From a virus, in the IMG/VR virus record IMGVR_UViG_3300042892_002029, positions 1-64,000 of that record: DNA of 64,000 nucleotides, one strand, 5' to 3'. Within the stretch, counting starts at the first letter, position 1; each line of letters begins with the position of its first letter. Both the position numbers and the translations under genes were made by a program. Of the stretch, positions 63,346-63,712 are shown piece by piece. Under the pieces are notes generated by a model. That model did not search any database. It was not told where the DNA came from and was given only the letters and a program-made list of their open reading frames with translations.

Positions 63346-63552
63346 ATGTTTAGAAAATATAATATATCATTAATGGATGAAAAATGGGGTATGATAGTAC
63401 CAAAAATGAGTGTTAGACACATTCCAAGATATGGTGAGTTTATCTATTTAAATAATCAAGAACAATATTTTAGAGTTTTAAATGTAATTCATAATATGAC
63501 TCATAAACATGAAATATTTATAATTGTTGAACTTTTTGATAAAAAAAGTTGA
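63346..63552 (+). CDS. Small hypothetical protein, 68 aa
   Basis: A TTG at 63340 is inside the promoter box, so ATG 63346 (MFRKYNISLMDEKWGMIVP) is used. The protein is beta-rich (RHIPRYGEFIYLNNQEQYFRVLNVIHNM, split for reading), similar in outline to small phage proteins with a GEFI-Y-x-x-(E/Q)-x-x-Y-x-V-x-x-V-x-H pattern. Function unknown. The next promoter begins at its stop. Confidence 0.55.
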   Translation: MFRKYNISLMDEKWGMIVPKMSVRHIPRYGEFIYLNNQEQYFRVLNVIHNMTHKHEIFIIVELFDKKS

Positions 63553-63578
63553 TATATTTAAAAATTGTGGTATATTTG
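63549..63578 (+). promoter_or_regulatory. Class 1 promoter of the structured RNA
   Basis: TTG at 63549-63551, 19 bases, TATATTTG at 63571-63578. Transcription should start at about 63582. Confidence 0.8.
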
Positions 63579-63581
63579 TAT

Positions 63582-63712
63582 ATCTCGTTATAAACACGAG
63601 TCAAAGAAAGATTACTGCAAACTTAAAAAACTTAGATTTAGATAAAAAAGAAAAACATCTTTCTGAAGGGTCACGAAAGTGATTACACCCCACTAGATTA
63701 GTGGGGTTTTTT
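63582..63712 (+). ncRNA. Structured small RNA with GNRA hairpin, ~130 nt
   Basis: A promoter and a terminator bound this stretch and it holds no plausible gene. A 5' hairpin CTCGT (63584-63588)/ACGAG (63596-63600) starts right at the predicted 5' end. AGAAAGAT (63605-63612) pairs perfectly with ATCTTTCT (63657-63664). A hairpin TCAC-GAAA-GTGA (63671-63682) has a GNRA loop. The terminator hairpin follows. I know no family with this layout. Promoter and terminator are seen; that it is a stable RNA is inferred. Confidence 0.7.
63687..63712 (+). terminator. Rho-independent terminator of the structured RNA
   Basis: ACCCCACTA (63687-63695), loop GAT, TAGTGGGGT (63699-63707), then T run. A 9-bp perfect stem. 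Confidence 0.9.

Follow-up and report, generated by a model that had tools for sequence, protein, structure and literature searches.

The IMG/VR virus record IMGVR_UViG_3300042892_002029 carries, in the 64,000-nt stretch analysed here (positions 1 to 64,000; hereafter the window), a structured non-coding small RNA gene at 63549-63712 that has no entry in Rfam. By sequence comparison, the gene belongs to an RNA family that is likewise absent from Rfam and spans many unrelated phages. Based on the covariation within this family, its co-occurrence with DUF2828 genes and the predicted Ro60 fold of the DUF2828 protein, the RNA is probably a Y-RNA-like partner of the Ro60-like DUF2828 protein that the phage itself encodes, a role that we infer from the genomic association described below. 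The proposal provides DUF2828 with a defined candidate family of RNA partners across phages of Listeria, Staphylococcus, Enterococcus, Campylobacter, Escherichia, Vibrio, Bacillus, Sinorhizobium, Fusobacterium and Bacteroidota.

The RNA gene and its phage family

The minimum-energy fold of 63579-63712 (-28.3 kcal/mol; z -2.93; energy equalled by 2 of 200 shuffles) consists of exactly the parts from which a preceding sequence-only reading had deduced a structured small RNA gene (Table 1), and the gene stands as described there. The promoter and terminator of that reading were upheld in part: the letters are present at both sites and the terminator is above chance, but the promoter letters alone are not (four matches against 2.6 expected, and seven against 7.4 in a second count). 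It had also seen no reading frame inside the gene; a 52-amino-acid open reading frame at 63524-63682 does cross the region, and its coding interpretation was rejected because the frame is broken by a 1-nt insertion in L001, a 97%-identical near relative that shares the entire RNA gene. In agreement with the statement that no 6S, RNase P, SRP or riboswitch RNA was matched, the neighbouring transfer-messenger RNA (tmRNA) alone passed the gathering score in an Rfam scan of the window, with no riboswitch, 6S, RNase P or signal recognition particle RNA, and BLASTN of the RNA region against named phages gave chance matches only.

The loci retrieved by the downstream kinase include phages that have, after tRNA-Met, a different-looking RNA of the layout AGAATAG-TTACAGCAA-A-rich-CTATTCT-GAA, in which, compared with the window RNA, the helix letters are changed, the pairing is kept and the strand 3' of the 5' arm is identical. 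Further members were found by pattern scans followed by a stem check. The family form is a 7-nt arm starting with AG or AAG, the motif NNNC(A/U/C)GCAA, a variable loop, the complementary arm and a G; loops are usually 20-110 nt, with longer ones known up to about 220 nt. Copies occur singly or in tandem, many of them between tRNA genes, and Aeromonas phage LAh_8 carries a tandem array of about eight. The window copy follows this form in its core at 63605-63665, where a 7-8 bp end-joining helix is followed by UUACUGCAA, an A-rich loop and a CUG end.

The long-range helix 63605-63612/63657-63664, for which a covariation test had been suggested in the sequence-only reading, is strongly supported: in an alignment of 46 members, 98.8% of the helix cells are paired and 108 are changed on both sides, and the covariation score is 0.936, against 0.221 for shuffles and at most 0.146 when slid. 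Since the scanner demands perfect pairing, its own stem counts are circular, and the fair tests are those with permuted motifs (see below) and with free pairs; with the three inner pairs unconstrained, pairing was seen there in 20 of 35 distinct pattern matches, about 5% being expected. A covariance model, R1, built from five members with the window excluded, gave the window copy 42.9 bits at 63602-63668. In a loose pattern scan of cellular genome contigs, by which cellular genomes were barely covered, there was no convincing element among the matches listed.

Wide conservation is limited to the core. The 5' hairpin is common to the window and L001 only, its place being taken by tRNA-Met in the relative L305, and the hairpin loop GAAA of the window is AAAA in L305. 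The core alone is kept beyond near relatives; the 5' hairpin and the GNRA hairpin, both named in the sequence-only reading, are local additions and not supported as key features. The conserved signature, namely the NNNC(A/U/C)GCAA after the 5' arm and the G after the 3' arm, had no place in that reading, nor did the DUF2828 gene and the second RNA copy listed in Table 1.

Table 1. Positions of the RNA gene parts, the second RNA copy and the DUF2828 gene in the window
Feature	Position	Strand	Basis
Ro60-like (by predicted fold) protein gene, DUF2828 + DUF7788	55566-57020	+	Pfam; PHROGs phrog_850 'RNA-binding protein'; predicted fold
Second family member, AGAATGC-ATGCTGCAA-long folded insert-GCATTCT-G	57034-57184	+	directly 3' of the DUF2828 gene
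Promoter candidate, Bacteroidota-type TTG-N19-TATATTTG	63549-63578 (TTG 63549-63551; TATATTTG 63571-63578)	+	sequence; kept in L001
5' hairpin CTCGT/ACGAG	63584-63588/63596-63600	+	fold; lineage-specific
End-closing helix, 5' arm AGAAAGA	63605-63611	+	pairs with 63658-63664; covariation, 46 members
Conserved motif UUACUGCAA, family form NNNC(A/U/C)GCAA	63612-63620	+	shared CNGCAA; permuted-motif test
Helix 3' arm TCTTTCT and conserved G	63658-63665	+	fold, model R1, covariation
Hairpin TCAC-GAAA-GTGA	63671-63682	+	fold; lineage-specific
Intrinsic terminator	63687-63713 (63687-63707 plus T run)	+	1 found against 0.1 expected

Association of the RNA with DUF2828 genes

A total of 15 named phages were chosen by their DUF2828 protein alone and then scanned for the RNA, which was identified in 12 (ValKK3, PJN02, LMP33, LP-083-2, phiM7, F357, H1, Fnu1, Ph11, BUCT194, vB_BcoS-136 and Ci1). 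Near the DUF2828 genes of these 15 phages there are 28 perfect elements, against a mean of 0.17 for permuted motifs under the same stem rule, and the presence of the element differs between DUF2828 phages and DUF2828-negative records with a Fisher p of about 2e-8. DUF2828 was matched in every one of the 14 RNA-bearing records above 54 kb, in two of them below the family cut-off, and the RNA-bearing records with no such match are all of 54 kb or less. Only one of 28 control records selected by the kinase has DUF2828 (G052), and this record holds three elements. Among five added control phages, most with tRNA clusters, Aeh1 is the only one with DUF2828 and also the only one with an R1 match, albeit a weak one (E 0.037). 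In a 193-kb record (L299, record G002) the RNA is kept and the DUF2828 frame seems to be interrupted by stop codons, homopolymer indel sequencing errors being likely.

The location of many copies between tRNA genes and the 7-bp helix, equal in length to an acceptor stem, would suit a processing or spacer element of tRNA arrays, that is, a hairpin-like RNA processed together with phage tRNAs and having a role in tRNA maturation. Such a role is unlikely, however, because the small survey of tRNA-rich phages lacking DUF2828 (T4, A5-4, S-PM2 and EGole) gave no element, arrays beside DUF2828 occur with hardly any tRNA (LAh_8, Staphylococcus), and the window copy has no tRNA. Association with tRNA clusters alone was rejected on account of these four element-free phages.

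All 26 elements in a strand tally lie on the strand of the DUF2828 gene, 17 of them within 1 kb, either upstream or downstream. Such an arrangement is more in line with a partner transcribed together with the gene than with an element of its leader. The alternative of a cis-acting regulator of the DUF2828 mRNA, through which the protein would control its own synthesis by binding to its leader or trailer, draws on elements that often immediately precede the gene, in its own orientation, and on phage ValKK3, in which TTTTACAGCAA is located in the DUF2828 leader, about 30 nt upstream of the start at 7992 and just after a promoter-like sequence; this leader could reflect autoregulation via the same recognition motif. 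As a general explanation it is as improbable as a role in tRNA maturation, since copies also lie downstream or kilobases off, the window copy is 6.6 kb away with its own terminator, and arrays contain many copies.

The AlphaFold model of DUF2828 from 14 phage sequences (predicted local distance difference test, pLDDT, 77.5; predicted template modelling score, pTM, 0.71) has the HEAT-like ring plus vWA fold of Ro60/TROVE proteins. Its best structure matches are TROVE/Ro60, with 9kop at the top (Foldseek E 2.6e-10; Z 18.0, root mean square deviation 4.5, 403 residues) and with Thermus phage phiLo Ro60, Deinococcus Rsr and eukaryotic Ro60 among the further matches; with a DUF2828 sequence profile, Ro60/TROVE chains likewise come first, at weak significance (E 0.016). 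The Pfam TROVE family (PF05731) was matched in none of 27 records, DUF2828/DUF7788 being matched instead. From the TROVE structure matches and the absence of Pfam TROVE, DUF2828 resembles Ro60 in its predicted fold and forms a family of its own in sequence. Pfam assigns DUF2828 to eukaryotes and viruses. Among about 50,700 phage records, 682 contained it, often under the label 'RNA-binding' or 'Ro-like'. A search of the literature, with subscription journals and preprints outside its range, gave no report on which RNA DUF2828 binds, no description of such an RNA and no paper joining DUF2828 with a phage RNA.

Proposed function and local setting

The proposed role as a Y-RNA-like partner builds on the end-closing 7-bp helix with the conserved single-stranded NNNCAGCAA beside it. 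Following established Ro60 biology, the DUF2828 protein would recognise the helix end and the CAGCAA strand, as Ro60 does the closing helix of Y RNAs; formation of the ribonucleoprotein (RNP) would stabilise the RNA, and the RNA would act as a gate or tether for the Ro60 ring. The substrates of the ring in infected cells would be RNAs, probably tRNAs, that are damaged or misfolded, and the copies would differ in cargo or target according to their variable loops. Of the roles raised in the sequence-only reading, that of a protein-binding RNA is the best. A regulatory RNA acting by antisense or other base pairing through its variable A-rich loop, independently of any dedicated protein, could make use of loops that are variable in sequence and unstructured and of the terminator, but is very improbable because conservation lies in the helix and the adjacent motif, not in the loop, and because the link to DUF2828 would be left unexplained.

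Some observations count against a Y-RNA-like partner. No known Y RNA family matches, and no Rfam Y or YrlA model was above its gathering score in the window. No element was detected in three of the 15 DUF2828 phages (mycobacteriophages Samty and Rose5, and phiAS5), of which whole or nearly whole genomes were scanned. The control record G027, a 13-kb fragment, contains the RNA with no DUF2828 seen, and the window RNA stands at its 6.6-kb distance from the DUF2828 gene, though the second copy adjoins this gene.

This second copy shows compensatory changes across five aligned orthologues, the window's included. Its 127-nt insert (57050-57176) is strongly folded, the whole element plus terminator having a z of -4.0, and is conserved toward the 3' end (ACAGGGTT...GCTATATAGCCCC); by analogy with the tRNA-like module of Y RNAs, the insert may form a module in its own right.

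L305, with a DUF2828 protein 83% identical to that of the window, has at the orthologous locus an element, tRNA-Met, an element, a terminator and the kinase; the orthologous element of L307 has the helix AGGTTAA/TTAACCT, of different letters and still paired; and a more distant relative has elements and tRNAs in an array there. Because these relatives hold elements or tRNAs at the locus, the window gene looks like a reduced tRNA/RNA array, which in this lineage would have shrunk to a single gene, transcribed alone from a promoter of its own and ended by its own terminator. The monocistronic layout is lineage-specific.

Between the two RNA copies, the window encodes DnaJ (58567-59583), a metallopeptidase (59645-60070), ClpP (60324-61028), the tmRNA (62130-62501) with the tag ENFLANASIEVVSGEVALA, and FKBP (62690-63112), a phage-encoded cluster for proteostasis and ribosome rescue (58567-63112). 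In L225 and LAh-type Aeromonas phages, an HNH endonuclease gene is interleaved with the RNA array, after which come DUF2828 and a gene of the band-7/SPFH type; mycobacteriophage Rose5 (L324) likewise has a band-7 gene near DUF2828. Listeria phage LP-083-2 carries RtcB and RNA ligase genes near DUF2828.

Comparison with known RNA systems

Species 1 and 2 of T4 (rnaC and rnaD) are stable phage RNAs encoded at the tRNA cluster, and we know of no function for them. They were rejected as members of the family, since they lack the CNGCAA-plus-helix element and T4 has no DUF2828. Y RNAs and YrlA are alike the phage RNA in being small RNAs with paired ends, the presumed Ro60-binding helix, and a gene beside a Ro60-like gene. 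They differ in that the phage RNA lacks the Ro-binding sequence of Y RNAs and that no tRNA-like module was found in the window element; YrlA matches in L253 are below the gathering score.

A weak Rfam match in the window was with Dictyostelium Class I RNA (RF01414; 23.3 bits). The RF01414 model matched 15 of 26 DUF2828 phages with up to 36.1 bits, largely at family elements, and one of 28 controls with 14.2 bits; its E-values err slightly on the optimistic side, matches at E <=0.05 being present in 4 of 14 control genomes. The phage RNA is not filed as Class I RNA because no phage element, with 36.1 bits at best, reaches the gathering score of 41.5 bits. Class I RNAs are reported as restricted to Dictyostelia, and their hallmarks are an AAG start, a short covarying end helix, a variable loop and a CUGU end, together with an 11-nt motif beside the 5' arm in which T3, C6, C9, A10 and A11 are near-invariant (Kjellin et al. 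2021, PMC7919456).

This motif is CCUUACAGCAA in the Rfam consensus, and the phage NNNC(A/U/C)GCAA stands next to the 5' arm in the same register, with U3 present in 58 of 95 phage elements and C6, C9, A10 and A11 preset in the pattern used for searching. Both RNAs share the AAG start, a short covarying end-joining helix, a variable A/U-rich loop, a CUG(U) end and many copies, and the compensatory helix of the phage RNA starts, as in Class I, at a conserved G (G or A-G at its 5' end). The phage RNA differs in its phage hosts, in a 7-bp helix that begins with AG or AAG, in loops that can reach about 220 nt, and in having bacterial promoters and lying in arrays, either tandem or with tRNAs. The DUSE promoter that lies about 60 nt upstream of Class I RNAs, being eukaryotic, would not be expected in a phage. 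In addition, the known direct binder of Class I RNA is the RRM protein Rnp1A, unlike the Ro60-like protein proposed for the phage RNA.

That Class I and phage RNAs belong to a single family and share a type of partner, a DUF2828/Ro60-like protein, is a tentative proposal, somewhat short of an even chance; the likeness may come from common descent or from convergence on a similar protein. For the dictyostelid Class I RNAs, long without an explanation, this offers a possible relative and a candidate protein type, and, if the two are one family, the supposedly amoeba-specific developmental RNA would represent, in eukaryotes, a branch of a Ro60 RNP system carried by phages.
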